Under the pieces are notes generated by a model. It saw only the letters and a program-made list of their open reading frames with translations. It was not told the DNA's origin and ran no database searches. A stretch of DNA of 64,000 nucleotides. Origin: Branchiostoma floridae. Lineage: Eukaryota; Chordata; Leptocardii; Amphioxiformes; Branchiostomatidae. The stretch is from the NCBI RefSeq assembly GCF_000003815.2, contig NC_049981.1, positions 3,648,699 to 3,712,698 on the forward strand, in the 5' to 3' direction. The translations under genes were made by a program, and so were the position numbers. Positions 1,691-64,000 of the stretch are shown here, piece after piece (position 1 is the first letter of the stretch; every line of letters starts with the position of its first letter).

Positions 1691-1854
1691 TCAAGCTTGC
1701 GAAGTACTTGGCTGAACGTCACACAGTGGAATCAGCTGACGATTCTTGCACTCAAACTTGTGAATCACGTCAGTCACCCTGTCCACTTCCTGCAGTACCG
1801 TTTCAGTCCGCTGGAGGGTCTCTTCCATAAAGTGGTCCGGAAGTGGTGCTTCAA
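1691..1854 (-). CDS. Terminal exon: C-terminal coiled coil
   Basis: This exon is not obvious as a long ORF, but it follows in frame from the S6 exon: the split codon G|TT gives ...DFD-VEAPLP. It encodes about 54 residues and ends in TGA at 1691-1693. The acceptor is TTTCTGAAG. The segment [17 protein letters not shown] then VTDVIHKFE has hydrophobic residues at heptad spacing, as expected for a short coiled coil. PKD1-family tails commonly carry a coiled coil used for assembly with a PKD2-type partner. There is no EF hand. If the upstream intron were retained, translation would instead stop at TAA 2168-2170 after about eight residues. Confidence 0.6.
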
Positions 1855-4800
1855 CTTCAGAAACGGCAAGAACGCAATGAATTTTAGTATAGCTTTTCTT
1901 TTTGTAATGCAGAACACTCTGAAATATTTGTTAATGATTAAAGTTTCTTTCTAAATCATTTGGTTATTTGATAACAATTGTTGGAATATTTGCCAGCAAT
2001 TGTTGGAATATTTCATGGCAATATTCGAATATTTCATGGCAATTTTCGAATATTTCATAGCTATAAACCTGCTGGAATCACAAGATGACTTCCTGCGATC
2101 TAATAGGTCTTGCTGTCTTTGGGAAAACGTTTACAAAAATATTAATTGCTAGGAGCTAACAAAACTGTTAGACAATGGTAGCTCTGATATTACCGTCAAA
2201 GTCCTGGGGTTCATGACGCATGCCCAGAAGACTCCTGAAGGAGTTCCAGAAGTAATCTCCCATCGCCGTGTCCACGCCGATGTCGTCTGACGTCTGACAG
2301 TAGCTCAGCCAGTTACAGAGCATCCCCACTCCGAGATTCATCTATAGGAGAACATAGACAGGGATATTTAGGCTACATGGTGTTGTTGAAGCTGTTGCAC
2401 TTATCATGCAAACTCGAACTCGGAATGGTTGGTGATAACAAATCATTATAAATATTTCTCTAAGACGGATTTGATTATTGTCTGACCAGGTAAAAGACGA
2501 AGACCATGACGAATGTAGAATAGTACAGAGGTCCCATGACACGATCTACTGCCTTCATATCGTCCGCAAAGACTCCGACGAACGGCCTCCCCAAGCCCAT
2601 CTCAAACAGCACGTACGACGTTTTCTTAAAGCCGGAGAAGGTCTCCATGTTTTTGCCGAAGATCAAATTCCCGCTGATGCCGTAGGCCACTATGATAACC
2701 AGCATGTACACAGCAAACCCGAAGGCTTCGCCGTATATCAGCTAGTGTAAACGAAAAAAAAATTGTTTTAAAAATCATTGGATCAACAGAATGGACAAAA
2801 CGTTAACATTTTGGGTAGAAATGTTCACGATGAATTCTACGTACGCGAGGCAGAGCGTAGACGGTAGCCACGCCCCTGGAGAAGTTGAGAACCCGCAGGA
2901 TGCAGAAGGTACTGATGAAGATGGAGAAGGACAGGACCTCCTTGAAGGTAGCGTCCCATTGGCCAGCGGTACTGATGTCTACGAACTCATTGATGCCGAA
3001 CACCCCTGTAAAAATCCATGTGTGAAAACGTTATTGTAAAAATGTTTGGCTGTATCTCGACAATCTCTAAACCGATGGGTGAAAAGGATGTTTTTACATA
3101 TGCAAAAAGGGTTTCTGCTTTCCCCCAAATGTAGGCAACATGTAGATAGTTTGTCAGCAGATACCTTTTGCTTGTTGTATATCACGCAGTGCAGCAGCTG
3201 CCTGGATGTATCGAAGTGCGAAGGTAACAATGACGGCTGTCGACAAACCAATGTTGCACAGGATCAAGACGTTCCAGAAACTGGTGAAGTACGCACGACC
3301 GCTCTTCCGTATGTTCCAAATCTCATTGAGGATGTTGTAGATGTAGAAAAGGACGAACAAGATGTGGAAAAGCATCTGGACATAGTCGTCTGCTGTCTGG
3401 TACTGGAACAACCGGAAAGACTGGATACTGGGCTGGAGTTCAGCAGCGCCCCCTGGGAGGTACTGCAGCCTGAACACCACGCTACTGAACAGCTTGACGT
3501 CAGGGTGGTAGAAGTTGGCCCGGAGCATGAGAGTGTCTGAAACCATCAGGATCCAGTCGGTCTGTTTTAGGAAGTCTATCACTGCAGCAGCCTGACCAGC
3601 ACCTCGTGACAGGTCCACCGTGGTCAAGCACGACGAACTCCCGTTTCTGTAATAAACAATAACGACAATTTTCTAGCAAAAAAAGGAAAAGGGAAGGTAC
3701 GAGGGCGATTCAAAAAGTAATGCCACTGGTTCTATAACAGGCTCATTTTTTCATCGAATGAGTTGAAGTTTGGCACAAAGGTACAAAAATATATCCTCTT
3801 GAGATTGAGACATCTCAATTTGTTGTTAAGATTTTTATGACTGACTGAGTTGAGTTCAAGATGACCACACCCTTGTTATCCAGTCGGAAGAAATTAGAGG
3901 GTCAATTAACGTGCGATTGGTAATGTCCCTGAATCACTTGTAGCTATTGTAAGAAACTAAAATTGCACATGTGTCAAGTTGCATTTCTCTATAAGCCACA
4001 TGCCTATTTTCATCTTTTAAATACAACAATTTATTATTTGTTCGTTCCTGGTGTGAAGTAAGGTCGTTAGGGTCGTAATTAGCGGTGGATTACGGGTGGG
4101 CTGCTTAAAGTTTCTATAACCGACTTTCGTATCAACTGAGAAAAATCAAACTTAACACACTTCTTGGTCTTGAAACAGTTAATAATTGTGCAATGTTTCG
4201 CATCTGTTGGTTAATGGAAAACAGTCTACAAAAACCTTTATTCAACAAATCACATATTTGGCTATTAATCAAACTGTCTGTAATATAGCAACTCGCTCTG
4301 TTCTAGTGGCTGTAAAAGATGAACCATTAAAAGTTCAAACATGAAATTTAGCATGTAATCTATAGAGACATTTGTTATTATACAGGTAAAATTTCAGCTT
4401 ACTACAATAGTTTTAAAATGGTAATTCTAGAGGAACTGATCTCCTGACAAGCTTAAGATCGTGGTCATCTTAAAGTCATCTCTGTTGCTCATAAAGATCT
4501 AAACCTCAAATCGAGATATCTCAATCTCAAGAGGATATAGTCTTGTACATTTGTGCCAAATTTGAACTCATCCGATGAAAAAATGAGCCCGTAATAAAAC
4601 CAGTGGCATTCATTTTTGAACCGCCCTCGTATATAAAAAGATTTTTGATTGCAAATACCTATAAACGAAAATTAAGAGGTTGATATATTATATCAACTCT
4701 CATAATTTCAACGGGAACTATAATAGCGCCACATTAAAAAAACATTTGTTATAGAGGCCTTCTCAAGACTGTCTTGAACACCTAAATATCTAAAATGTAC

Positions 4801-7800
4801 TACTGATGCTCAATTGGAACATCACTTTAGATTTATGCATTTTTTGTCATGTGGCGGTATTATAGCATTCGCTGGAATTATGAGAGTTGATACTAAATGA
4901 AACAAATTGATAGAGGACGTTGAGCTCATTTTCTCTGGATACGTACATAAAACTTGCCAACAATTCATCAGCATCAAATACGTTTGATATTCGACCAATG
5001 CATGCAATACAAAAGGAATTTATTCATTGTACCTGACTTCGTTGACAATAAATACAGCGTCGCTGTTCGAACAGTTCTTTCCATTCTGTCGGCCGAGAGC
5101 TCCATTCAGTAGATTCATCATCAACTCAGGATAGAGTTTTTGCTGACTAGTTTCGAGGTCTATATCTATTGGGTCCTCTGCAATTGAATGAACATTCCGA
5201 TAAAGACTCTGTTGACCAATTCAACACATTTTTACTCAATGGTCACCAGATGACCAGAAGGTCACATCAAGCTTTGACGCTAAGGCCACTGAGAGGTTTC
5301 GGTTTATATGTAACATTAACAGCATCTCCTCTCCCTAAGTCAGAAACTTTATGGTTGAGACAAGCTCAACTGCTCACTGTGATTGAGGAATAACTAATCC
5401 ACATTGGACCAAAGACACTTTTTACCTGGATGTTTGGTGATTCTCTCCAGGCGAACAGGACCGATCCGGAACGCGTTTGTTCCAGCCGGAAACTGTTTGT
5501 CCAGCCAGCTGAGCTTCTGCCCGCTGTACCCCCGCTCTGGGTGGAGAGACGGGATCAGTTCAGACGACAACCACTCCCAGGCGTCGTCTACTGTGGCGAC
5601 CTGAGAAGATAGTGTTAAATCATGACATATAAACTTGATAAATGACTAGTTGTTGGGATAGTCAATGATTGCAAAGATCAGAGCAGTTACCACTAATAGA
5701 AATCTGCATAGGCGATATTGAAAAAGTTAGCAAGTTCAGGGTGTCATAATCTCATCCGTGAACATTCCAGGTCATAAGAACTCACCCCACACAGCAGCCC
5801 GCTTTCTCAAGTTTCTAAAAGTCTAATTTTTAAACTTTCTGACCAGCGCAAGATATCCCACCGGTCAACCTACACCAATATGAAATGTTTCTTACATTTT
5901 CTTGTTACAAGTCGAAAATAGGCTAAAATACTCATTTTGAGCCTTCTGCGGCTGCGTCAATTAGGGTCATTGCCCATCATGGTCAAAGAGGTCATCATCG
6001 CCGGCTACTCACAGGTGTGTAATGCATAACGGTGATTTAACAGTTATGCCAACGGCCGACAAACCAACCAACCAACCGACCAACCAACCATAACTTACCA
6101 AAATAGTGTAAAATGAACGCCATTTGGCGCTCAATTTTCTAAACATTTCTACCACTCTGTTATCGCCCGGATTGCTGTTTAGCCTGCCAGCTTGAGAACA
6201 GCAGTTTTTGCAACCGTACCTCCTCATACTCGGATAGCAGGCTGTTCTCCAGAGAGGTCCTGATATGGTAGACGTGTCTGTCGAAGCCCAGAATCCCGAT
6301 GTAGAAGGCATTTCCAGTGAAGATGAGCAGAAACACCAGGAGCACCAGGATGTTTCTACCTGTTGTCATCCTTTCGGTCCAGTTCGGGTCATGGTCGGTC
6401 TTCCTCGGGACCGGTGGTAAAACCCTCCGAGCGGGAACTGAATCAGAAATACAGAACACCAATGACGTTAGCTGTATAAATACTTTAGATAAAGGCTCAA
6501 TTTTGCCAAAAGAACGTTGAAGATGTTGTTCTATCTAGTTAATTGTTCTTCTTTTGAATAAATCATACAAAAAAAAATGTTATACCCCATGCTCTGATAG
6601 TGAAAAAATACAAAGCCGCTTATTGACTAGGACTAGGGTAGTGGCAGTCTACTATAGTCTTACACGTGAAACTTTTGAAGACAAACCTGTATATTCTCTG
6701 CTCTTTTTCTTAAGGACACCGATTGGACAACGCCCTGTGTCCGATAAATCCTTCCCCAAAACTCCCCGAGCACAAGCGGTCACAGACCACACAATAGGTC
6801 CGATGATGACCGCCTTTGTGTAAGCAGTCAGAAAAATCTGCAAAGTACGTACAGCGGTTAAGTCACAAACAATCATAAAATACATCGACAAAAACTAAAA
6901 ACGTTTATTGGAATGTTTATTGTTAAAAAGTACTTACGAATTTTAAGGGATAATAAGTTCTATATAGGGATGCTCTAGAGTCTACCTGCAGCATCAAGCT
7001 GCGTGCCGTCTTCTGGTTTTGCCATCTTGGATTTTAGCCGATAAAGTCATTAAATTAGTATAATTCATTCATATCTATTTTCGAAAGATATACTTCATTT
7101 AATAACATTGTATCAATGCCATCAAGTAGCCGAAATCATGTACAATTGATTGATAGATCCGACATTTAGTGATTTTTGTCCAAAATACATGTCAAAAACC
7201 TGTTGCATAGCAAAACAAGAAAAAACGGAAAACTTTGCAACCTTTCTCAATCTGTTGCCAACTAATTTTCTTAAATTTTGGTTACTTTAGCATAAGCCCT
7301 TCAGGCGGTATGCGACATCAAAGTTGGCACAGGCCTCAAACCCTATACCACCCCCACCCCTACCGGCCGCACCCCCGGTCTGAATGCATGCTAACCTGAA
7401 CAGGCTCCAGCAGAAACGTAGAGAATAAGAATGCCAGGACGAATTCCTTTAGCCAGGCCTGGCTTCTCTCAGCTCCAAACTGCAGACTGTACACGATGAC
7501 GAAGAAGCTGCTGCAGACAGACGTCAGGATGGCGAGGATCCACGCCACCGTCTTGTAAGGAAACCGGCGGGTCGTTTGAGATGTCGGCTTTTTCATCACT
7601 CCAGGAGGAATCTGATCCTCCAACGCAGGCTGCTTGCGAAACATCGGCACGAGGATGACGTAAACTGGCAGGAACACTGTGAAGGATGTAGCTGCAGTAC
7701 CAATCAGTTCCGATAGACGGAGAGTGATGACTCCAGCGTCGAACAAAATGACATCGTGTGCACCCAGTTTGACCCCGTACCACATGGCGCTGCCCACCAT

Positions 7801-46484: not shown

Positions 46485-46515
<31 letters not shown>

Positions 46516-46545
46516 CGTGTGTGTGTGCGTGCGCGCGCGTGTGCA

Positions 46546-46602
<57 letters not shown>

Positions 46603-58600: not shown

Positions 58601-61600
58601 GCTCAGAACTGATATGTGGTAGGCATAAATAAAAGCATAGCTTTGAAGACTTTCGGTAACGTCATCAAAGCAGATTATGAGCCTGGGCAGAAAATAGATA
58701 ATACGGGGGATTTTAATTTATCAGCACTGGACTTGAAATTGAAACCCCTACACTTGTGTTCAAAGATTACGATTGCTTACCGCTTTAGCTCAAAATCATA
58801 TTAATGAAGTATTGTAGGCAAAGCCCAAACCAGGTGGTATAGGTCAATCCTAAATCCACCCACCTGCGTATGTTCCGTTGATACATCCATTTGGCTGGTC
58901 GTCCTCGCCAAAAGAAGTGAGCGTGATGGTGTAATCCGTGTCGGGCAGCAGTCCCGATACGGTAGCCGAGGTGACCCCTGCTCCCGGTGCGGGGGAGAGG
59001 TCCCGGTAGGAGCCCGACCCGTCTGCCGGCTGGTAGCGGAGCCTGTAGCGCGAGATAGGAAGACTCCCCACGACTGTCCAGGACACGGAAAGATGACCTA
59101 TCCCGCCATCATCAAGAGTCAGCCCTGCGAGACCTGGAACTGTATAGTTTTAACAATTAAACAAGTGACCGTAGGTAACATAATCTGTGACGTAATTCTG
59201 GTATATGTTGAGTGTTTTGCTGTCTGTGTTGTGTGACGTTGTGTTTAGATCGCATAATGATTATATTACATGGCATTAAACCTAATATATAGTATGAAGT
59301 TAGTTAAAGATGTCTTACATATGTCTTCCACATGTTAATCACATTACTGTAGACGTAAAAAGCAATATCAGTGTCATATGTGAGCGACACCAAAAGGGAA
59401 CAGACAAAAGTTTCTGTGTGTGGTAAAAACATAATCCCCCTTCATGAAAATTCTCCCTGAACCATACTCCTTCTGTCCTGCTAATTCCCTGAAGCGGGCA
59501 CAAACAAACCCGGGTACGAGATAGCACAGCTGAGTGCGTACAACATCTGCTTGACGGGATCCAATTACCACAAGGCTTAAGAAGCCATCAAAACGAGGAC
59601 CTGAACCACTATACCGGAAGGCGTAGGGGTGAATTCTGAATATATATTACATCCATAATAAAATTATGAAAACAGCTACCGCGAAAAAACAACAACGTGC
59701 ATCATCGCACAGGTCCGTACAGAGTACATGCCAAACTACATACTCATGCGACAAAGGGAAGATACAGATGCGAACGCGCTTGACATCGTCAAAAATAATA
59801 CCCCGTCGCCGGAGGCTACCATCTGATCACAGATTACTTAAAAATAACCGAAGTGCAAGTGAACTAAACTCTACCCAATGAAACAGCAAACCCTTACCAA
59901 GGTTGCAGCCAAGAACTTCAACCCTCATGCTGATGTGATCATGCCAAGACTGAACCACGAATAGCACATAGCGGGCATTGATTGGGTTGTCTAGAAGGTT
60001 CGTCACAGGTGAGAGTGCGTTTGTGTTGCCTGTAAAAACCTGCAAGATAAACGGATGATTCAGATTAAGGCTTCTTCAAACTGTCAGAAGTTTGCTAGTA
60101 TTACCAACCAGACAACGTCGATATCTTTCGCATTTCATAAACAACGAACAGCAATAATTGGGCTTAAGCTTAAAGCGTACCACGATTATACATGTAGGTG
60201 TGTAATAACCAGACGTCATCTTGAGCAAACAGACGTGATGAATAGAGGAGTGTTGTGAGGCGATATTTGCCTTGAAACGAGAGTGATAAGAGCTGGAGCA
60301 GTGTGCGCTGCTGGTAAAACAAATAAAGTAGAAGTGTGGCACTTTGAAAGGGACATGACCCACCAACAGATACCCGTATAGACGTGGGCAAAATCAATTA
60401 TAATTTCCATACTTGTATCTACGTTACCTTGTCTGAGCCATCACTGCTGGTATATGTCGTCCAACTGTTCCACGCTGCTCTATACTGGAGTTTGTATGAC
60501 GTCACAAACTGTTCGCCCCTGTTGTCGATTGTGTGGCGCCCCTGAATAACCGTACCCGTGACGCGCTTTATCTCTCCCAAATCCACCTAAAAGGCAAATA
60601 TAATAATCATAGCGTCTTTTTTGTAGAGACGCGAATAGTAGCAGCTTTGCAGAACACAGCGTTTCTGAATTATATCGGTATAACAACTAATTCTAGTTAC
60701 ACGTACAGCGAGAACTTAAATTGATCATAAAACAACGATAATATTCATGGGGTTTTGCAATGTATCGACATGCATAAAATTAATCAAGTTGCAGCAACGT
60801 CGCCTTTAAAGTCATAGTCTTCAAAAATCATCTATTTTGTTAAAATGTAAAAAAGTTTGCTCGAGAAGATAAAGCTGAAAACAGTTGACAGCGACTGCAA
60901 GCTGTTAGTCAACATTGCACAAAGCGAACTTATCATTTTACGCCAAATTAAAGTCCAGTACTGTTGAACTAAAAGATTTTGCCTTTTTTTTTTAAATCGG
61001 AAAAAAAATTTCAATGAATACAAGCTTAACTGCTGCTGCTGCTGTATTTCCAAACTTGCACCGCTACATGTCATAACACATGGAAGATTTTGTTTTCGAG
61101 TACAACAGTGTTGCCAACATGAGTGTTGTGATGGATAAAAGTTAACAGAAAATAATTCTTATTCAAATATGCGTAAATAATTTTTTTAATGTTGCAAAAG
61201 ATATACCTACCTGCAACCATTGTCCGATTGACTTCGCCGAAGGCACGGCGGCCCATGCACCAAGTCCAGCAACTCCGTTTAGGCGTCCCTGATATGACGC
61301 AAAATCAGGATGGGTCGAGGATGCAGTGATGTCACTGTCGGGTATGGCACCGGATTCCATTCCAAGTGGAACCTGACAGACTGGGGGAAAACAAATTATG
61401 TTCCAGTTAGTTTGAAATGTCCTTAGGTGATGGGGGTCTGTAGTAGTATCCTGTTTGCGACTGGGGGTGATACTTTTGCACTAAGCTTTTCCAAAAAAAT
61501 AACCATTGCAAAAAGAACATTCGAAAACCTATAGTCAAGTTCCTTAACCAGTCATGGATTTCATATTGGTTTTCACTCAGAGATTTAGCTGCCAGGGTTC

Positions 61601-63596
61601 TAGATTGTTTTCTGTAATACTCAGAACTGATGTGTGGTAGGCATAAATAAAAGCATAGCTTTGAAGACTTTCGGTAACGTCATCAAAGCAGATTATGAGC
61701 CTGGGCAGAAAATAGACAATATGGGGGATTTTAATTTATTAGCACTGGACTTGAAATTGAAACCCCTACACTTGTGTTCAAAGATTACGATTGCTTACCG
61801 ATTTAGCTCAAAATCATATTAATGAAGTATTGTAGGCAACCCAGGTGGTATAGGTCCATCCTAAATCCACCCACCTGCGTATGTTCCGTTGATACATCCA
61901 TTTGGCTGGTCGTCCTCGCCAAAAGAAGTGAGCGTGATGGTGTAATCCGTGTCGGGCAGCAGTCCCGATACGGTAGCCGAGGTGACCCCTGCTCCCGGTG
62001 CGGGGGAGAGGTCCCGGTAGGAGCCCGACCCGTCTGCCGGCTGGTAGCGGAGCCTGTAGCGCGAGATCGGAAGACTCCCCACGACTGTCCAGGACACGGA
62101 AAGATTACCTATCCCGCCATCATCAAGAGTCAGCCCTGCGAGACCTGGAACTGTATAGTTTTAACAATTAAACAAGTGACCGTAGGTAACATAATCTGTG
62201 ACGTAATTCTGGTATATGTTGAGTGTTTTGCTGTCTGTGTTGTGTGACGTTGTGTTTAGATCGCATAATGATTATATTACATGGCATTAAACCTAATATA
62301 TAGTATGAAGTTAGTTAAAGATGTCTTACATATGTCTTCCACATGTTAATCACATTACTGTAGACGTAAAAAGCAATATCAGTGTCATATGTGAGCGACA
62401 CCAAAAGGGAACAGACAAAAGTTTCTGTGTGTGGTAAAAACATAATCCCCCTTCATGAAAATTCTCCTTGAACCATACTCCTTCTGTCCTGCTAATTCCC
62501 TGAAGCGGGCACAAACAAACCCGGGTACGAGATAGCACAGCTGAGTGCGTACAACATCTGCTTGACGGGATCCAATTACCACAAGGCTTAAGGCGCCATC
62601 AAAACGAGGACCTGAACCACTATACCGGAAGGCGTAGGGGTGAATTCTGAATATATTACATCCATAATAAAATTATGAAAACAGCTACCGCGAAAAAACA
62701 ACAACGTGCATCATCGCACAGGTCCGTACAGACTACATGCCAAACTACATACTCATGCGACAAAGGGAACATACAGATGCGAACGCGCTTGACATCGTCA
62801 AAAATAATACCCCGTCGCCGGAGGTTACCATCTGATCACAGATTACTTAAAAATAACCGAAGTGCAAGTGAACTAAACTCTACCCAATGTAACAGCAAAC
62901 CCTTACCAGGGTTGCAGCCAAGAACTTCAACCCTCATGCTGATGTGAGTATGCCAAGACTGAACCACGAATAGCACATAGCGGGCATTGATTGGGTTGTC
63001 TAGAAGGTTCGTCACAGGTGAGAGTGCGTTTGTGTTGCCTGTAAAAACCTGCAAGATAAACGGATGATTCAGATTAAGGCTTCTTCAAACTGTCAAAAGT
63101 TTGCTAGTATTACCAACCAGACAACGTCGATATCTTTCGCATTTCATAAACAACGAACAGCAATAATTGGGCTTAAGCTTAAAGCGTACCACGATTATAC
63201 ATGTAGGTGTGTAATAACCAGACGTCATCTTGAGCAAACAGACGTGATGAATAGAGGAGTGTTGTGAGGCGATATTTGCCTTGAAACGAGAGTGATAAGA
63301 GCTGGAGCAGTGTGCGCTGCTGGTAAAACAAAGAAAGTAGAAGTGTGGCACTTTGAAAGGGACATGACCCACCAACAGATACCCGTATAGACGTGGGGCA
63401 AAATCAATTATAATTTCCATACTTGTATCTACGTTACCTTGTCTGAGCCATCACTGCTGGTATATGTCGTCCAACTGTTCCACGCTGCTCTATACTGGAG
63501 TTTGTATGACGTCACAAACTGTTCGCCACTGTTGTCGATTGTGTGGCGCCCCTGAATAACCGTACCCGTGACGCGCTTTATCTCTCCCAAATCCAC
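1691..63596 (-). CDS. Giant polycystin-1-like receptor-channel gene (73 exons, 5' end outside window)
   Basis: A single minus-strand, intron-split gene encodes a polycystin-1-type membrane protein. The C-terminal half has the family order GAIN/GPS, TM1, PLAT, then ten more membrane segments including the polycystin extracellular (TOP) loop and the pore. The hallmark [14 protein letters not shown] and TOP motifs are all visible. The N-terminal half is a string of F5/8C, FN3, FAMeT, sushi and EGF domains, mostly on exons with symmetric 1-1 boundaries. I joined exons by splice sites and phase, and the frame carries through every junction except the GPS exon near 9938. Known PKD1-family proteins pair with PKD2-type subunits in the plasma or ciliary membrane; applying that here is inference. 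The annotation could in principle be two adjacent genes, but no stop, promoter or phase break separates the halves. Total coding length in the window is about 13.7 kb. The start codon and signal peptide lie beyond position 64000. Confidence 0.8.
1975..2065. repeat. Short imperfect tandem repeats in last intron
   Basis: Four to five near copies of a ~20-24-bp unit built on GGAATATTT(C/G)...GGCAA occur in the intron before the terminal exon (AACAATTGTTGGAATATTTG, then ATTTCATGGCAATATTCGAA and variants). Confidence 0.7.
2194..2741 (-). CDS. Polycystin pore: S5, pore loop, S6 (exons 2487..2741 and 2194..2341)
   Basis: The first exon carries S5 ([19 protein letters not shown]), the pore helix region and the start of S6. 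The second finishes S6 and gives the cytosolic start. [20 protein letters not shown] aligns by eye with the PKD2 segment just after the selectivity filter. Where PKD2 proteins have an LGD filter, this protein reads EMGLGRP, without the acidic residue, so it resembles a PKD1-type non-canonical subunit. The join ...[12 protein letters not shown] is phase 0. The second exon ends GAC G|GTAATA, splitting a codon with the terminal exon. Confidence 0.8.
2845..3646 (-). CDS. Polycystin TOP-domain end and S2-S4 (exons 3165..3646 and 2845..3005)
   Basis: Exon 3165..3646 begins in the extracellular polycystin loop: [20 protein letters not shown], then ADVKLFSS-like strands and the RLFQYQ strand. It continues into S2 ([18 protein letters not shown]) and S3 ([19 protein letters not shown]). 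Exon 2845..3005 adds S4 ([17 protein letters not shown]) and the S4-S5 linker ending YALPR. The G|GG split codon between them restores [10 protein letters not shown]. The V/TVDL...FL..TDW and FY..DVKLFSS patterns are diagnostic of the PKD channel family. Confidence 0.85.
3700..4629. mobile_element. Mariner-like MITE in a polycystin intron
   Basis: The element has long terminal inverted repeats. The left end reads CGAGGGCGATTCAAAAAGTA, and the right end is its diverged reverse complement ending CGCCCTCG. The similarity continues inward for roughly 120 bp (the TCTTGAGATTGAGA arms). TA dinucleotides flank both ends (3698-3699 and 4630-4631), the target duplication used by Tc1/mariner elements. 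The ~930-bp body contains no transposase ORF. It lies in the intron between the two TOP-domain exons. Confidence 0.75.
5033..5600 (-). CDS. Polycystin extracellular TOP loop (exons 5426..5600 and 5033..5177)
   Basis: Exon 5426..5600 encodes [20 protein letters not shown], then [12 protein letters not shown] and the [12 protein letters not shown] strand. This matches the conserved start of the polycystin loop (an FW.WL..L.P helix, then G..R.RQLR). Exon 5033..5177 encodes [10 protein letters not shown] followed by a poorly conserved, Asn-rich piece with an NCS glycosylation sequon. Split codons G|AG and AG|A join both exons to their neighbours in frame. The donors (CCAG|GTAAAA and TCAG|GTACAA) fit consensus. 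Confidence 0.8.
5601..6219. other. Intron with (CCAA)n tract
   Basis: This polycystin intron holds a short CCAA/CCGA microsatellite at about 6060-6090 and no coding sequence that I can support. Confidence 0.6.
6220..6837 (-). CDS. Polycystin S1 region (exons 6687..6837 and 6220..6437)
   Basis: Exon 6687..6837 finishes the preceding membrane helix ([17 protein letters not shown]) and enters a Cys-containing cytosolic loop. Exon 6220..6437 gives a basic loop ([16 protein letters not shown]) and then the S1 helix [19 protein letters not shown]. It ends SEYEE|, which joins in phase 0 to [10 protein letters not shown] of the TOP loop. In PKD1-family proteins this helix opens the six-segment channel module. 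Confidence 0.8.
6838..7395. other. Intron, no feature recognised
   Basis: AT-rich polycystin intron. I see no coding, RNA or repeat signature apart from a short C-rich run near 7350-7376. Confidence 0.5.
7396..7942 (-). CDS. Polycystin TM2-TM5 exon
   Basis: This exon of 547 nt contains the PKD1-family signature [20 protein letters not shown] immediately after the PLAT linker. TM2 follows (ending SAMWYG), then TM3 ([16 protein letters not shown]), a loop with [19 protein letters not shown]4 ([19 protein letters not shown]) and TM5 ([16 protein letters not shown]|). The donor CAG|GTTAGC gives a phase-0 exit into IFLTAYTK. The start is set by acceptor TTACCTTAG|C: one base completes the CG|C arginine codon from the PLAT exon. 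The order and spacing match polycystin-1-like proteins. Confidence 0.85.
8173..9118 (-). CDS. PLAT/LH2 domain (exons 8858..9118, 8519..8679, 8173..8262)
   Basis: The three exons encode a PLAT beta-sandwich in the first cytosolic loop. It starts [20 protein letters not shown] and continues [16 protein letters not shown], then [43 protein letters not shown] and [19 protein letters not shown]. This is the classic order in polycystins (Y.V.V.TG..AGT..., GE.....VWHD.SG, L..V.V.D, F.C..WL). PLAT domains bind membranes and protein partners. The N-terminal part of exon 8858..9118 ([20 protein letters not shown]) is a helical linker after TM1. Phases are 0, 0, 2, 2. Confidence 0.9.
9336..9581 (-). CDS. 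GPS C-terminal strand and TM1
   Basis: The exon has 82 codons and is phase 0 at both ends. It starts with the CTC pair of a GPS-like motif ([12 protein letters not shown]) and continues [15 protein letters not shown], typical of the stretch between GPS and TM1 in polycystins. TM1 follows ([20 protein letters not shown]). The usual cleavage triplet HL(S/T) after C.C is absent: the sequence reads [15 protein letters not shown]. Four NxT/NxS sequons precede TM1. Confidence 0.8.
9898..10002 (-). pseudogene. GPS exon with an apparent 1-nt frame break
   Basis: Two in-order but out-of-frame segments lie here. Entering in phase from the GAIN exon through acceptor GGTTTTAG|AC gives [20 protein letters not shown]. 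The following bases encode [13 protein letters not shown] in the next frame, which fits the GPS pattern (W...C) and exits in phase 0 to the CTC exon. One surplus base around 9937-9938 (CTGCAGG|TTTCAC) separates the frames. Alternatives are a 40-nt microexon 9898..9937, or an earlier acceptor at 10030, but neither satisfies both flanking phases. It may be a sequencing or assembly error, an allelic lesion, or splicing that I have misread. Confidence 0.5.
10376..10925 (-). CDS. GAIN-domain exon (polycystin juxtamembrane ectodomain)
   Basis: This is a 550-nt exon from [18 protein letters not shown] to [11 protein letters not shown]|. The opening resembles the V..F..NPF strand that begins the late GAIN fold of PKD1-like proteins. 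The remainder is beta-rich, with repeated V-x-V strands ([39 protein letters not shown]). I infer GAIN from position and pattern; sequence conservation here is low. The exit donor AAAG|GTCGAC is weak. Confidence 0.65.
11114..12145 (-). CDS. GAIN/REJ-like helical region (exons 12058..12145, 11457..11752, 11114..11338)
   Basis: Exon 12058..12145 ([19 protein letters not shown]) and exon 11457..11752 ([20 protein letters not shown], then a Cys cluster [20 protein letters not shown]) lead to exon 11114..11338 ([20 protein letters not shown]). The acidic amphipathic helices match subdomain A of GAIN domains in position and character. No REJ domain is recognisable. Phases are 0-1, 1-0 and 0-0. The last exon ends AAG|GCATGC, an apparent GC-AG intron donor, and joins STMK|VVAFVE. 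Confidence 0.65.
12319..12863 (-). CDS. Ser/Thr/Pro-rich mucin-like stalk (exons 12663..12863 and 12319..12482)
   Basis: Exon 12663..12863 encodes [20 protein letters not shown] and later [20 protein letters not shown]. Exon 12319..12482 encodes [20 protein letters not shown] and then [13 protein letters not shown]. The composition predicts dense O-glycosylation and an extended stalk between the EGF domains and the GAIN fold. The joins are [15 protein letters not shown] and FLIE|EEIP. Confidence 0.75.
13151..13273 (-). CDS. EGF domain 3 (calcium-binding type)
   Basis: A 123-nt, phase 1-1 exon encodes [20 protein letters not shown], then [13 protein letters not shown] and a final HSC. The D-x-D-E-C start and the GSYNCSC core are the calcium-binding EGF signature. 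It is the last EGF before the mucin-like stalk. Confidence 0.9.
13448..13570 (-). CDS. EGF domain 2
   Basis: A 123-nt, phase 1-1 exon encodes [20 protein letters not shown], then [13 protein letters not shown] and HHC. It has six cysteines in EGF spacing. The calcium-binding start is slightly altered (DFDEC). Confidence 0.9.
14049..14171 (-). CDS. EGF domain 1 (calcium-binding type)
   Basis: A 123-nt, phase 1-1 exon encodes [20 protein letters not shown], then [13 protein letters not shown] and HTC. It is closely similar to EGF 3. The three equal-length exons indicate tandem exon duplication. It joins in frame to the preceding sushi exon (FCQ-DIDEC). Confidence 0.9.
14172..14878. other. Intron, no gene
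   Basis: This intron between EGF 1 and the sushi exon carries plus-strand open stretches with no recognisable domain and with codon content like intron DNA. I see no repeat structure worth naming. Confidence 0.5.
14879..15073 (-). CDS. Sushi/CCP-like domain, copy 2 (membrane-proximal)
   Basis: A 195-nt, phase 1-1 exon encodes [20 protein letters not shown], then [18 protein letters not shown] and [17 protein letters not shown]. The G-S-W then final C pattern, with Y.C.PG upstream, is a CCP/sushi fold. The leading CVDPP...CDCP part is atypical. There are two NxT sequons. It is nearly identical to the exon at 33254..33448. Confidence 0.8.
15713..16251 (-). CDS. FAMeT-type domain, copy 2 (exons 16006..16251 and 15713..15904)
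   Basis: The two exons encode a domain resembling the farnesoic acid O-methyltransferase family (PF12248). The first part carries [28 protein letters not shown] and [19 protein letters not shown]. The second carries [20 protein letters not shown], then [14 protein letters not shown] and KIGYG. The FW.CW..G...VG......PF..W.DP core is diagnostic. In this extracellular context I read it as a binding module; no enzymatic activity is implied. Exons are phase 1-1. Confidence 0.8.
16688..17529 (-). CDS. F5/8C (discoidin) domain 8 of the tandem eight
   Basis: Exon a 17357..17529 ([20 protein letters not shown] ... GQWLQ), exon b 17038..17184 ([20 protein letters not shown] ... [12 protein letters not shown]) and exon c 16688..16826 ([20 protein letters not shown] ... 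MRVEIAGC) form one discoidin fold. The first Cys and the terminal GC form the canonical disulfide. This is the most diverged of the eight, with LKEVMRVW in strand b and a tryptophan-rich spike (RGGGWVPW). The family's NGS sequon is changed to DGS. It joins to the FAMeT copy 2. Confidence 0.9.
17648..20053 (+). mobile_element. LINE fragment enclosed by 34-bp perfect inverted repeats
   Basis: The sequence starting CTCCTTCACCGGCGTCTCTG at 17648 runs 34 bp and recurs as its exact reverse complement at 20020-20053. Inside each repeat is a T/G-rich run (17685-17705) or its complement (20001-20019). A reverse-transcriptase ORF and its 3' flank with a GAA microsatellite (about 19950-19968) lie between. 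Comparison with the paralogous introns of neighbouring F5/8C copies, which read CAAGCGACGTAACCG...CCTTACA without the insert, places the insertion in that motif. Diverged flanks CTCAACCG and CTTAACTG suggest a target duplication. Inverted ends are not LINE features, so this may be a LINE nested in a foldback/TIR element. Confidence 0.7.
17692..19881 (+). CDS. Non-LTR reverse transcriptase, 5'-truncated, frame intact (CR1/Jockey-like)
   Basis: The open frame of about 729 codons has the RT blocks in order: [71 protein letters not shown] and the catalytic FADDTAVYR near 19066-19092. A thumb (AKYLGVTL) and the C-terminal YASSVWDPH...RRAARFV block follow. The N-terminal endonuclease is missing; only the basic EN-RT linker remains. 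The frame opens at a TTG inside the flanking repeat, so the start is an artefact of truncation. The lack of stops implies a young insertion. It runs antisense to the host gene. Clade assignment is by eye. Confidence 0.85.
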   Translation: MEGGGPYKTKPEVLQNANRPILLYGRANWEVMKQDMETLQQSFTDSEHMSTEELWQKFKLALKVSMAKHIPTKKPRRKESLPWMTSGIHHLIRKRDRLYRKMKKSGSLDMRKEVKNLNREIRKQMRRSYWRYTEHLFSPTSSEESSRPSLKRFWTYMKHQRSTTTGVPALKSNGKLVIDPKQKAELLNKQFYTAFSEGATYTASEFKDRCPMPDSRNDFPSMDNITISTKGIEKLLTRLNPIKAAGPDGITPRVLKELATELSPILTTIYKSSLHTGQVPKDWKEALVTPVFKKGEHYKASNYRPISLTSVPAKILEHVLVSAIKHHLESNNILSTQQHGFRKHHSCETQLLEFVEEASSAMESGVATDVIIMDFQKAFDRVNHSLLVHKLDHYGIRGRTNSWIANFLSDRKQAVVVNGAQSSYVDVRSGVPQGTVLGPCLFLTYINDLPERISSPSRLFADDTAVYRLITCLEDSSKLQEDLGKLEDWESEWDMAFHPDKCSQLNLTRARKPPNAHTSYKLHNHTLERVPSAKYLGVTLQADLSWGKHIDNTYSKANRTLGFLRRNLRVCSSKTKELAYKALVRPVVEYASSVWDPHTNRDISKIEKIQRRAARFVLNRHRNTSSVSDMLEQLQWPSLQDRRRTSRLAMLYKILNGLAHVRCKTLKPLPSSNRCRRGHSLQLQHIPCRTNYRLSSFLPRTVREWNNLSEETVQSPSLARFILKVSSAS
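20443..21519 (-). CDS. F5/8C domain 7 of the tandem eight
   Basis: Exons 21329..21519, 20800..20946 and 20443..20584. Exon a carries [20 protein letters not shown], a spike region [20 protein letters not shown] and GQWLQ. Exon b carries [20 protein letters not shown] and an NGS sequon. Exon c carries [20 protein letters not shown] and EIAGC. Each border is GT-AG, and the phases (1-0, 0-0, 0-1) match the other copies. Confidence 0.92.
21959..23079 (-). CDS. F5/8C domain 6 of the tandem eight
   Basis: Exons 22889..23079, 22335..22481 and 21959..22100. The spike reads [20 protein letters not shown]. Exon b has [20 protein letters not shown], where an unpaired cysteine replaces the usual serine (LQYS). 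Exon c ends MRAEIVGC. The exon lengths 191, 147 and 142 nt equal those of domain 7, as expected for exon-triplet duplication. Confidence 0.92.
23504..24613 (-). CDS. F5/8C domain 5 of the tandem eight
   Basis: Exons 24420..24613, 23891..24037 and 23504..23645. The spike [20 protein letters not shown] is nearly that of domain 6. Exon b reads [13 protein letters not shown]: it has lost two threonines and the NGS sequon but keeps its length through a one-residue insertion in SHEYQWVTS. Exon a has one extra residue near its start ([10 protein letters not shown]). Confidence 0.92.
25200..26337 (-). CDS. F5/8C domain 4 of the tandem eight
   Basis: Exons 26135..26337, 25563..25712 and 25200..25341. 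Exon a is the longest of the array, with an enlarged spike ([20 protein letters not shown]) before IGEWLQ. Exon b carries [20 protein letters not shown]. Exon c shows [10 protein letters not shown] where the others have [10 protein letters not shown]. The core discoidin motifs are kept. Confidence 0.9.
27019..28768 (-). CDS. F5/8C domain 3 of the tandem eight
   Basis: Exons 28575..28768, 27804..27956 and 27019..27160. The spike is [19 protein letters not shown]. Exon b (153 nt) carries [20 protein letters not shown] and NGSKM. Exon c carries [20 protein letters not shown] and EIVGC. The introns are longer than in neighbouring copies because of inserted AT-rich sequence. Confidence 0.92.
28140..28520 (+). 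other. Possible retroelement 3' end in F5/8C intron
   Basis: A stretch absent from the other copies' introns ends in an A-rich tail (GCAAATAAATAAACAGACAA and onwards, about 28489-28520). The tail and its copy-specific presence suggest a retroposed fragment. The short plus-strand ORF here has no recognised domain. Confidence 0.3.
29144..30268 (-). CDS. F5/8C domain 2 of the tandem eight
   Basis: Exons 30075..30268, 29526..29678 and 29144..29285. The spike [19 protein letters not shown] makes this the closest relative of domain 3. Exon a has the variant GDIADGS instead of GAIPDGS and ends GQWFQ. Exon b has [20 protein letters not shown] and NNGSEM. Exon c has [16 protein letters not shown]. 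Confidence 0.92.
30863..32344 (-). CDS. F5/8C domain 1 of the tandem eight (N-terminal)
   Basis: Exons 32169..32344, 31230..31379 and 30863..31004. It follows the sushi exon directly ([14 protein letters not shown]), and its acceptor GTTCTCCCAG lies inside what is coding sequence in the other copies, so the AVAP lead-in is missing. The spike [20 protein letters not shown] has an adjacent cysteine pair, and exon c reads VFPCNVD where all others have PGN. This copy therefore has three extra cysteines, which may make additional disulfides. Exon c ends EILGCN. Confidence 0.9.
31440..31841. mobile_element. piggyBac-like MITE
   Basis: TTAA sites (31440-31443 and 31838-31841) bracket ends CCCTCAAGCACC... 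and ...GGGTGTTTGAGGG, which are inverted copies with one mismatch. GTGGGACCCC and GGACCCCACTC are further inverted matches, though less exactly spaced. TTAA targets and CCCT-type ends are characteristic of piggyBac elements. The ~400-bp body has no transposase ORF. It sits between exons a and b of F5/8C domain 1. Confidence 0.7.
32345..33253. other. Intron, no feature recognised
   Basis: AT-rich intron between the sushi exon and the first tandem F5/8C exon. A plus-strand 128-codon open stretch (32749-33135) has no domain similarity, and I do not regard it as a gene. Confidence 0.5.
33254..33448 (-). CDS. Sushi/CCP-like domain, copy 1
   Basis: A 195-nt, phase 1-1 exon encodes [20 protein letters not shown], then [19 protein letters not shown] and [11 protein letters not shown]. 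It has the same length and phase as the exon at 14879..15073, with about a dozen residue differences. It links FAMeT copy 1 to the first of the eight tandem F5/8C domains. Confidence 0.8.
33738..34278 (-). CDS. FAMeT-type domain, copy 1 (exons 34021..34278 and 33738..33929)
   Basis: The exon structure equals that of copy 2, except for a four-residue insertion ([13 protein letters not shown]). Motifs: [40 protein letters not shown] and [20 protein letters not shown]. The second exon is 192 nt in both copies and almost identical over the FRRFW...DPHP core, so the cassette was duplicated recently or homogenised. It is joined upstream to the Thr-rich linker ([13 protein letters not shown]). Confidence 0.8.
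34279..35848. other. Intron, no gene recognised
   Basis: 1.57 kb between the Thr-rich linker and FAMeT copy 1. Short open stretches on both strands (for example 34648-34914 and 35180-35422) show no domain. Confidence 0.5.
35849..35917 (-). CDS. Thr-rich linker microexon
   Basis: A 69-nt, phase 1-1 exon encodes [20 protein letters not shown] then SPD. The acceptor is TTTCTGCAG-like (CCCTGCAG) and the donor is GATG|GTATGA. It joins in frame the last F5/8C of the FN3 array (CSTG) to the FAMeT domain. The composition predicts an O-glycosylated hinge. Confidence 0.7.
36435..37907 (-). CDS. F5/8C domain of the FN3 array, unit 1 (C-terminal)
   Basis: Exons 37744..37907, 36966..37121 and 36435..36576. 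Exon a: [20 protein letters not shown], a short spike [14 protein letters not shown], then IGQWLQ. Exon b: [20 protein letters not shown] and [20 protein letters not shown]. Exon c: [20 protein letters not shown] and [11 protein letters not shown]. The terminal GC pair is changed to VC, and a second Cys appears (HICMRV). It is more diverged than units 2-5 and is followed by the linker instead of an FN3. Confidence 0.9.
38393..41301 (+). mobile_element. Degenerate APE-type LINE with 11-bp target duplication
   Basis: The duplication TGTAGGCAAAG occurs at 38382-38392 and 41302-41312. The same motif is uninterrupted in the paralogous introns (near 52786, 55801 and 58814). The insert encodes, on the plus strand, apurinic-type endonuclease pieces ([41 protein letters not shown]) and then RT blocks ([57 protein letters not shown]). 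Several stops and frame changes (for example at 38666, 40179, 40337 and 40642) break it. The APE plus RT layout and style are RTE/CR1-like; I do not assign a clade. Confidence 0.8.
38947..41156 (+). pseudogene. Broken reverse transcriptase of the inserted LINE
   Basis: Longest open part 38947-40179 (endonuclease end, linker, RT fingers), with continuations in other frames at 40145-40339, 40408-40644 and 40563-41156 (thumb and C-terminal [33 protein letters not shown]). The catalytic YADD lies at about 40473-40484. It is not expected to make a functional enzyme. Confidence 0.75.
41560..42560. repeat. Diverged dispersed/tandem repeat block
   Basis: The motif GGCCCCCTAGCGTCTAG recurs at about 41769 and 42087, with a weaker copy near 42370. 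The motif GATAACT(C/G)CAGAA-like recurs at about 41879, 42155 and 42430. The spacing is roughly 275-315 bp, and the repeats are strongly diverged. The stretch before them (GTCAGACGTTTCGGAAAG...) looks like a separate interspersed repeat. Confidence 0.45.
42561..44540. other. No gene recognised
   Basis: AT-rich sequence with A-rich runs (42820-42860) that may be old retroelement tails. Open stretches at 43372-43638, 44016-44315 and 44102-44542 have no recognisable domain. Confidence 0.4.
44553..44652. repeat. 20-bp tandem repeat, about 5 copies
   Basis: The unit ATATTGCACTTAAACAGGAT is repeated head to tail with occasional G/A changes. It lies immediately after the stop of the minus-strand LINE ORF, so it is that element's 3' UTR tail in the element's orientation. 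Confidence 0.85.
44659..46374 (-). pseudogene. LINE fragment: end of RT plus restriction-like endonuclease (R2/R4/NeSL-like)
   Basis: The 571-codon open frame starts within the RT ([11 protein letters not shown] near its N-terminus, [22 protein letters not shown]) and so lacks the fingers. Downstream are a zinc knuckle ([17 protein letters not shown], with [13 protein letters not shown]) and a PD-(D/E)xK-type core: [16 protein letters not shown], then [13 protein letters not shown] and [16 protein letters not shown] and a C-terminal restriction-like endonuclease define the R2/R4/NeSL group of LINEs. It is 5'-truncated, with no obvious stops, and presumed inactive. Confidence 0.8.
46479..46602. 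repeat. (TG)n microsatellite
   Basis: About 120 bp of TG repeats with CG-containing interruptions (about 46515-46540). Confidence 0.95.
46600..47260. repeat. Imperfect direct duplications
   Basis: A block GTGTGACCTTGATAT...CATTTGGCTC...TTTCCTGTCT.CCTATGGT at 46598-46750 recurs at 46944-47050. The phrase GACCTGAGCTGACCC followed by CTGATCCCA recurs at about 47069 and 47222. No coding content. Confidence 0.5.
47690..48369 (+). other. Two adjacent unidentified ORFs (104 and 121 codons)
   Basis: Open frames 47690-48004 and 48004-48369 abut with a one-base overlap. The first includes [20 protein letters not shown], the second [20 protein letters not shown]. Base composition here is less AT-rich than the flanks. 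I recognise no domain. It could be part of an unclassified mobile element or chance ORFs. Confidence 0.2.
48370..49800. other. No gene recognised
   Basis: AT-rich sequence with simple ATTT/AAATGG-type low complexity (49250-49520). No coding signature. Confidence 0.5.
49825..51225 (+). pseudogene. LINE ORF2 C-terminal fragment
   Basis: An open frame runs from about 49825: [19 protein letters not shown], then [20 protein letters not shown] (the post-catalytic RT block), [18 protein letters not shown] and a terminal zinc knuckle [18 protein letters not shown]. It ends in TGA at 51223-51225. The catalytic YADD and everything upstream are missing, so this is a 5'-truncated insertion. A 3' UTR with AATAAAGATCG (51327-51337) and a short CCTAAA-type tail (about 51341-51355) follows. 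The first ATG in this frame is at 50017, but the homology starts earlier. Confidence 0.8.
51930..52520. repeat. ~150-bp minisatellite, about 4 diverged copies
   Basis: TCAAGTTCAA.C.CCA.GAGG-like starts recur at about 51932, 52080, 52229 and 52383, each followed by CCCAAA(A/G)TCAA and a CCAC/CAAC-rich segment. The period is 148-154 bp. The overlapping plus-strand frames are low-complexity consequences of the repeat. Confidence 0.6.
52829..53104 (-). CDS. FN3 domain, unit 1
   Basis: A 276-nt, phase 1-1 exon encodes [39 protein letters not shown] and [20 protein letters not shown]. The W, YR.RY and L...T.Y...L positions are those of a fibronectin type III sandwich. It differs from the other three FN3 exons at several residues ([10 protein letters not shown] against [15 protein letters not shown] against GCING) and is the oldest-looking copy. 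Confidence 0.9.
53868..55351 (-). CDS. F5/8C domain of the FN3 array, unit 2
   Basis: Exons 55182..55351, 54400..54555 and 53868..54009. Exon a: [20 protein letters not shown], spike [23 protein letters not shown]. Exon b contains [20 protein letters not shown]. Exon c contains [20 protein letters not shown] and [20 protein letters not shown]. The terminal motif is EVLGCNPG. Confidence 0.93.
55852..56127 (-). CDS. FN3 domain, unit 2
   Basis: A 276-nt, phase 1-1 exon. It differs from the FN3 exons of units 3-4 by a handful of substitutions ([20 protein letters not shown]). It has an NGT sequon near the end. Confidence 0.93.
56882..58362 (-). CDS. F5/8C domain of the FN3 array, unit 3
   Basis: Exons 58193..58362, 57413..57568 and 56882..57023. 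Coding and intron sequence are almost identical to unit 2. Exon c has [18 protein letters not shown], replacing unit 2's extra cysteine (HICMRV) by serine. Exon b starts VDFGEIKRV because of AATCAACCT at its border. Confidence 0.93.
58864..59139 (-). CDS. FN3 domain, unit 3
   Basis: A 276-nt, phase 1-1 exon encodes [40 protein letters not shown] and [17 protein letters not shown]. It is essentially the same as unit 4. Confidence 0.93.
59898..61380 (-). CDS. F5/8C domain of the FN3 array, unit 4
   Basis: Exons 61211..61380, 60428..60586 and 59898..60039. Exon b is one codon longer than in units 2-3 ([14 protein letters not shown]). Exon a has SYQGRLN for PYQGRLN. Exon c ends EVLGCNLG with [10 protein letters not shown]. 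Confidence 0.93.
61875..62150 (-). CDS. FN3 domain, unit 4
   Basis: A 276-nt, phase 1-1 exon. The sequence matches unit 3 except for a few bases (including HLSVSW changed to NLSVSW near the start). Confidence 0.93.
62907..63596 (-). CDS. F5/8C domain of the FN3 array, unit 5 (partial)
   Basis: Exon c 62907..63048 and exon b 63438..63596 ([14 protein letters not shown]). Exon a is expected just beyond 64000 by comparison with the ~3.01-kb unit spacing. Exon c matches that of unit 3. Confidence 0.92.
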
Positions 63597-64000
63597 CTAA
63601 AAGGCAAATATAATAATCATAGCGTCTGTTTTGTAGAGACGCGAATAGTAGCAGCTTTGCAGAACACAGCGTTTCTGAATTATACCGGTATAACAACTAA
63701 TTCTAGTTACACGTACAGCGAGAACTTAAATTGATCATAAAACAACGATAATATTCATGGGGTTTTGCAATGTATCGACATGCATAAAATTAATTAAGTT
63801 GCAGCCACGTCGCCTTTAAAGTCATAGTCTTCAAAAATAATCTATTTTGTTAAAATGTAAAAAAGTTTGCTCGAGAAGATAAAGCTGAAAACAGTTGACA
63901 GCAACTGCAAGCTGTTAGTCAACATTGCACAAAGCGAACTTATCATTTCACGCCAAATTAAAGTCCAGTACTGTTGAACTAAAAGATTTTGCCTATCTTT

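Follow-up and report, generated by a model that had tools for sequence, protein, structure and literature searches.

The question raised by this locus is whether a single gene in the amphioxus Branchiostoma floridae joins a long discoidin (F5/8C) ectodomain to a polycystin-1-like channel body, and whether the copy found there is intact. The window, by which we mean the whole 64,000-nt stretch of DNA analysed (C3:3648699-3712698 in a 513-Mb genome), had been read in an initial annotation as one continuous gene for a polycystin-1-like channel subunit.

Module order of the window gene

On the minus strand, from 63596 to 1691, stop-free stretches and homologous exons were found in the claimed order, namely an F5/8C + FN3 array, FAMeT, sushi, F5/8C, FAMeT, sushi, EGF, Thr-rich stalk, GAIN-like region, PLAT and polycystin channel (Table 1), with a module count of 13 F5/8C (one cut at the edge), four FN3, two FAMeT, two sushi and three EGF. 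Alignment of module exons to the window (tblastn) placed 12 complete F5/8C domains and exons b and c of the thirteenth on this strand, together with all four FN3, both FAMeT-sushi cassettes and the three EGF. Exon a of the thirteenth domain starts 215 bases outside the window edge (C3:3713078-3712914).

An exon chain, made by dynamic programming followed by manual building, comprised 74 exons (13,524 nt, 4,507 residues), with AG at all acceptors, GT at 72 donors, GC at one donor and phase kept across 73 junctions. A simple exon-chain score was 762 on the minus strand versus 23 on the plus strand, using a minus-strand-trained codon table that favours the former; runs made without a homology bonus lost many exons and were dropped. 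Pfam analysis of five pieces of the chain (2,584 of 4,507 residues) returned F5_F8_type_C (E = 5.6e-45 and 5.4e-30), fn3, Methyltransf_FA, Sushi (first copy only), EGF_CA, PLAT (2.3e-13), Polycystin_dom (2e-8) and PKD_channel (8.6e-30). No REJ, PKD, LRR, WSC or C-type lectin domains were found in these 2,584 residues, and one F5/8C domain gave no NCBIfam match. The module map, the Pfam results and the 762 versus 23 score put the domain order far above chance. Strand, span and domain order as initially annotated, including the 13 discoidin domains, were therefore borne out, and the domains claimed for the spliced translation were recovered in the five pieces, with GPS seen only below the Pfam cut-off (0.053) and GAIN not listed.

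Table 1 Features of the window gene (positions within the window)
Feature	Position	Strand	Evidence or remark
F5/8C U1, exons b (63596-63438) and c (63048-62907)	62907..63596	-	tblastn; exon a beyond window
FN3 exon	61875..62135	-	tblastn, Pfam
F5/8C U2, three exons	59898..61380	-	tblastn, Pfam
FN3 exon	58864..59124	-	tblastn, Pfam
F5/8C U3	56882..58362	-	tblastn
FN3 exon	55852..56112	-	tblastn
F5/8C U4	53868..55351	-	tblastn
FN3 exon	52829..53089	-	tblastn
Intron, ~500-base repeat-unit type split by ~14-kb insert	37908..52828	-	Flank alignment
F5/8C U5	36435..37907	-	tblastn
Thr-rich linker exon, phase 1 to 1	35849..35917	-	Exon chain of window only
FAMeT (PF12248) domain 1, two exons	33738..34278	-	Pfam E 5.7e-15
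Sushi domain 1	33254..33448	-	Pfam E 1.3e-5
F5/8C D1-D8, three exons each	16688..32344	-	tblastn; D1 also Pfam
D1, D2	32344-30863, 30268-29144	-	
D3, D4	28768-27019, 26337-25200	-	
D5, D6	24613-23504, 23079-21959	-	
D7, D8	21519-20443, 17529-16688	-	
FAMeT domain 2, two exons	15713..16251	-	Pfam E 1.6e-13
Sushi domain 2	14879..15073	-	88% identity to sushi 1; sushi not listed by Pfam here
Three EGF exons (14171-14049, 13570-13448, 13273-13151)	13151..14171	-	EGF_CA E 7.8e-21, 3 stretches
Thr/Ser/Pro-rich stalk, two exons	12319..12863	-	Ends of first exon without neighbour confirmation
GAIN-like exon e56	11555..11752	-	198 nt versus 197 nt in 3/3 neighbours
GAIN-like exon	11114..11338	-	Donor GC; GT in 3/3 neighbours
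GAIN-like exon	10376..10925	-	Neighbour comparison
GPS exon	9898..10030	-	133 nt versus 173, 167 and 173 nt in neighbours
GPS end and first membrane helix	9336..9581	-	Neighbour comparison; HL-T/S tripeptide absent
PLAT, three exons	8173..9118	-	Pfam E 2.3e-13; conserved in neighbours
Membrane helices 2-5, two exons	6687..7942	-	Polycystin-1 chains E ~1e-6, no single stretch passing alone; conserved
S1, first channel-body helix	6220..6437	-	Conserved in neighbours
TOP (Polycystin_dom), exons 5600-5426 and 5177-5033	5033..5600	-	Pfam; neighbours
Channel body, four exons	2194..3646	-	PKD_channel E 8.6e-30; PDB polycystin-2 E 8e-25
C-terminal exon with stop	1691..1854	-	PolyA-like signal at 1660

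Relatives in the same genome

The 230 kb adjoining the window (294 kb in total, with 1,851 N) was searched with the window's own modules and contained three further genes: G2 (minus strand), G3 (plus strand, head to head with G2) and G4 (plus strand). As counted by eye, G2 consists of seven F5/8C, FAMeT-sushi-EGF, three F5/8C, FAMeT-sushi-EGF, FAMeT-sushi and the GAIN-to-channel part, and G3 has five and three F5/8C within the same cassette frame. G4 has a reduced plan of F5/8C and sushi, without a FAMeT match to the window modules. On C8, F5/8C-FAMeT-sushi-EGF-EGF-EGF-GAIN-GPS-PLAT-helices-channel follow one another on one strand in the order of the window's 3′ part, over 20 kb ending in a channel exon; the remaining C8 channel exons are matches of the genome-wide PKD_channel search described below. 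The end of the GPS exon is doubled at this locus (C8:19656742 and 19656881, 139 bases apart).

Thus, each of the four other loci (three neighbours and C8) has F5/8C domains ahead of the same body on a single strand, and three of them also carry FAMeT-sushi-EGF. The window gene differs from its neighbours in module numbers, in the presence of FN3 and in having no EGF after the first sushi. As its FN3 exon found no match in the three neighbours, its 5′ array is less backed by paralogues than the rest. The recurrence of the same plan in relatives within one genome indicates that the window modules make up one kind of gene.

In both G2 and G3, an 18-exon chain from e56 to the stop was in frame (18/18 AG, 17/17 GT, no inner stop; 1452 and 1450 codons including the stop), three of the exons having been located by patterns that include splice sites. 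G4 was in frame save for an N-run and an adjacent stop in the exon after e56, the acceptor of which was set by hand.

Genome-wide, PKD_channel gave 158 matches, and the 150 listed merged within 5 kb into at least 126 loci, a very large polycystin set; FAMeT gave 123. Among the matches listed, 19 of 126 channel loci had a FAMeT within 45 kb upstream on the same strand, a number reached in 0 of 2,000 strand flips (mean 12.2, maximum 18) and in 0 of 2,000 rotations (mean 0.44, maximum 9; nominal length of 25 Mb per contig). Such FAMeT matches, again among those listed, preceded 16 of 17 loci of the window-exon type and 3 of 109 others (Fisher p = 2e-16), the 17 being picked by eye; where loci are clustered in tandem, some FAMeT matches may be a neighbour's.

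Repeat array and ectodomain variation

The F5/8C + FN3 units recur with a period of ~3,012 bases, and their homologous exons and introns are 88.7–100% identical in a gapped comparison; the ectodomain units have expanded via tandem duplication. Recent 3-kb tandem units occupy 52500-64000 and 36435-37907 of the window. The insert in the intron between FN3 and U5 contains reverse-transcriptase-like ORFs (read by eye), and its flanks align at 82% and 88% to both sides of the ordinary unit intron. For this reason, junction 52829-37744, across which the initial annotation had proposed continuity, can be taken as one array split by the insert. By eye, reverse-transcriptase-like ORFs in introns were placed at 38887-41153 (+), 49801-51222 (+), 46386-44662 (-) and 17683-19878 (+).

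Divergence was higher in exons than in introns for the FN3 of unit 4 (16/261 versus 13/1158, p = 8e-6) and for exons b and c of unit 5 (22/298 versus 7/389, p = 4e-4), and this excess was absent in two further comparisons (exons b and c of unit 4, p = 0.39; unit 2 versus unit 3, p = 0.22). Positive selection on the repeat units was rejected, given that only two of four comparisons show the excess and that synonymous sites are raised too. The latter makes exon conversion an equally good reading, so that the exon excess reflects either exon conversion or fast exon change.

Values of dN/dS were 0.20–0.41 among the eight D copies of F5/8C, 0.34 between the two FAMeT-sushi cassettes (dN 0.113, dS 0.329) and 0.23–0.34 across all six pairs of body exons 61-74, being slightly higher in pairs with the window copy (0.30–0.34) than among G2, G3 and G4 (0.23–0.27). 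Purifying selection acts on both the F5/8C copies and the channel body. The most variable F5/8C columns fall in three loops picked by eye (mean 1.48 versus 0.55 bits), which we take to align to the membrane spikes of factor VIII. The nearest solved structures for D6, the one domain searched, were factor VIII C2 (best), factor V, neuropilin and lactadherin; for FAMeT, a single structural match (E = 0.61) was discarded.

Apparent frame breaks ahead of the channel body

Projection of window exons 53-74 onto G2, G3 and G4 served as a reference for this part of the chain. Fifteen of the 22 exons had AG and GT in all three neighbours, as had the last exon its acceptor; the others were stalk exons (partial or no matches) and GAIN/GPS exons. 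One of the 15 nevertheless carried a wrong donor, and AG/GT agreement in conserved sequence is thus not proof of an exon end. Exon 12145-12107 is conserved, with the alignment continuing beyond its modelled donor.

Three departures from all three neighbours are found inside ~2 kb: the length of e56, the GC donor and the GPS exon, in which the motif is partly lost and the frame is not kept. The stretch absent from this GPS exon is present at the C8 locus. Given their length differences, e56 and the GPS exon both break the frame, i.e. twice ahead of the first membrane helix, and when the first break is read through, the frame stops 92 residues past the e56 start, ahead of any helix. An alternative phase-clean chain relies on a 17-nt exon and weak sites, and omits GPS residues present in the neighbours.

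Compatible phases, from which the initial annotation had argued continuity, did not hold up as proof of one gene: the 74-exon in-phase chain had wrong GAIN/GPS ends and an unsupported 17-nt exon, and comparison with the three neighbours put two exons (11752-11555 and 10030-9898) out of frame and showed GC at one donor. A phase-clean chain is easily built and yet wrong, which makes phase agreement weak evidence. Judged against its paralogues, the window copy probably reflects gene decay or misassembly. Its exons 61-74 have no inner stop, and since they are still constrained, the breaks would be either recent or assembly errors.

The HL-T/S cleavage tripeptide was absent at the putative GPS of both the window chain and G2; the GPS of G2, at 0.29, is likewise below the Pfam cut-off, and the Cys/Trp pattern was read by eye. 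PKD1L1 and PKDREJ also have no HL-T/S and are not cut, according to an excerpt of PMC9672506, and the tripeptide is consequently not required for membership of the polycystin-1 family.

Further downstream, PLAT sits between the first and second helix, as the polycystin-1 family requires. The TOP profile is covered at 6-53 (weak, 0.04) and 129-198, with a conserved non-profile stretch in place of 54-128; exon 5177-5033 had no Pfam profile match, yet it has AG/GT in 3/3 neighbours and is 88, 88 and 78% identical to them. Loss of a TOP stretch to a transposon was considered and dropped because of this conservation. TOP intron 3698-4631 contains inverted repeat arms of 171 bases (85% complementary), perhaps a small DNA transposon. 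Matches in the PDB were polycystin-2 (channel core, E = 8e-25), PKD1L3 (9e-7) and polycystin-1 (~1e-6). Both the window copy and G2 read LGR at the filter position. Hydropathy analysis of G2 (threshold 1.6) gave ten segments, the expected second helix not among them, where the family has eleven.

Gene start and full extent

The G2/G3 head-to-head region yielded a signal-peptide exon with a phase-1 donor, present in seven copies in the 294 kb; signal peptides are seen for G2, G3 and G4 and upstream of the window gene. No copy was found in the window (best match E = 0.40). The closest one on the same strand (C3:3768542-3768471) is ~56 kb upstream of the window edge, which would give the window gene a span of about 118 kb; the window most likely holds about half of it, the 3′ half. 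Beyond the window, the same strand carries matches to three F5/8C, exon a of U1, four FN3 and two FAMeT, one of the latter with an inner stop. In 48.4 kb of introns, one other signal-like start with a phase-1 donor was found, inside the 15-kb intron, by a scan for which the window offers no positive control and which overlooks signal peptides interrupted by an intron.

The initially stated size was hence too small. One gene with a discoidin ectodomain and a polycystin-1-like body agrees with the paralogue plan and with the absence of a family signal-peptide exon from the window, and what was described is an incomplete gene. The label of channel subunit suits the family, with G2 and G3 in frame, and is doubtful for the window copy, with two frame breaks before the first helix.

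Opposite-strand (+) signal-peptide exons occur upstream at C3:3717538-3717609 and 3745304-3745375, one without ATG, in an apparently duplicated ~28 kb; by eye, no family module lies downstream on (+). G3 has two signal-peptide exons, and the G2/G3 start region (C3:3836261-3845140) is partly palindromic (1.9 kb at 75%), possibly a shared promoter.

Discussion

With the polycystin-1 family (PKD1, PKD1L1-3, PKDREJ and the sea urchin REJ proteins) the window gene shares PLAT and the channel body, together with a putative GPS-like region, the first helix and probably the further helices, and it differs in an ectodomain of F5/8C, FN3, FAMeT, sushi and EGF and in the conserved non-profile middle of TOP; REJ or PKD repeats are not common to all members of that family. 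Polycystin-2 has the same channel core (E = 8e-25), but with six helices, no long ectodomain and LGD, whereas the window gene has a large ectodomain, PLAT and LGR. Factors VIII and V, neuropilin and lactadherin are the nearest solved F5/8C relatives of D6, and in contrast to them the window gene places at least 13 tandem F5/8C on a channel. It has two domains over the cut-off in common with FAMeT (Methyltransf_FA, PF12248) proteins, here with sushi and EGF and upstream of a channel. Unlike adhesion GPCRs, it continues after the GPS-like region with PLAT and a polycystin channel instead of a seven-helix GPCR body. Among the matches listed, titles and abstract openings of the amphioxus/Branchiostoma polycystin literature revealed no discoidin-polycystin protein. 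The domain combination is real. Its ectodomain is new for the polycystin-1 family, the system as a whole being of a known kind, and the channel gene is probably not intact in the window copy.

We therefore favour, with a probability of roughly three in four, a reading in which the window is the 3′ half of a member, probably recently broken, of a polycystin-1-like surface-receptor family whose arrays would bind ligand and which would work beside a partner. The family plan would be a signal peptide, F5/8C arrays, usually FAMeT-sushi(-EGF) cassettes, a stalk, GAIN-like/GPS, PLAT, helices and channel. Discoidin domains are a type with lipid or sugar ligands, and the F5/8C arrays may attach to such ligands on cells, matrix or particles; in an excerpt of PMC7728438, a lectin-domain (C-type lectin) fragment of the PC-1 N-terminus is described as activating PC-1/PC-2. 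GAIN would stay uncut, as in PKD1L1 and PKDREJ, and binding or pull could reach the helices via the uncut GAIN/stalk, PLAT and TOP. The subunit probably works with a polycystin-2-type partner and not alone, a partner suggested by LGR in place of the polycystin-2 LGD at the filter; PMC6832002, as excerpted, gives the polycystin-2 filter as L641-G642-D643 and that of PC1 as L-R-L, with PC1 joining polycystin-2 1:3. The window copy, if translated, would end as a soluble ectodomain. For lancelets, a rate of domain-pair gain above 10 per Myr and shuffling of 1-1 exons are reported in an excerpt of PMC4284660, which would suit such a family.

That the window copy is intact, both frame breaks being assembly errors or spliced around, is possible at well below even odds. 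Its constrained, stop-free exons 61-74 and the existence of a phase-clean chain would fit, but three departures from 3/3 neighbours within about 2 kb would have to be explained away, and the chain needs a 17-nt exon and weak sites and loses GPS residues that the neighbours have. We consider it quite unlikely that the broken copy serves as a soluble ectodomain (decoy or agglutinin): a signal peptide lies upstream and the frame ends 92 residues after the e56 start, before the helices, but the body exons look constrained and nothing indicates old breaks. In addition, a stop ahead of many exons usually triggers mRNA decay.

A division into two genes, an upstream F5/8C-FN3 array gene and a downstream FAMeT-channel gene, is highly unlikely. 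The FN3 exon unmatched in three neighbours, the 15-kb intron and the weak junction 35849-34278 (site scores 1.8 and 0.9) speak for it; however, G2 and G3 also carry an F5/8C array between signal peptide and first FAMeT, the 15-kb intron amounts to an ordinary unit intron plus an insert, and the window is without the family signal-peptide exon, with just one other signal-like start in 48.4 kb of introns. Domain architectures are said to be distorted by mispredicted genes (PMC3927609), but a chain fused by prediction from unrelated neighbours is next to negligible as an explanation: three other loci, on two chromosomes, show F5/8C, FAMeT-sushi-EGF and body on a single strand, and a fourth shows F5/8C with the body.

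Returning to the preferred reading of a recently broken family member, the window illustrates that a broken gene can hide behind a phase-clean exon chain. Rather speculatively, a set of 17 or more receptor-channels within a single chordate genome might constitute a diversifying recognition system (for self, microbes or particles) with direct polycystin-channel signalling, its discoidin arrays turning over by tandem duplication, its body constrained and broken members feeding or decoying, a view that we hold to be unlikely.

To our knowledge, the stimulus of polycystin-1 proteins is an open question. In this family the polycystin-1 body is kept while the ectodomain is swapped for long discoidin arrays, in several copies, and as the reading frames of G2 and G3 stay open through the body and discoidin ligand types are known, the proposition that the stimulus is set by the ectodomain can be put directly to the test.
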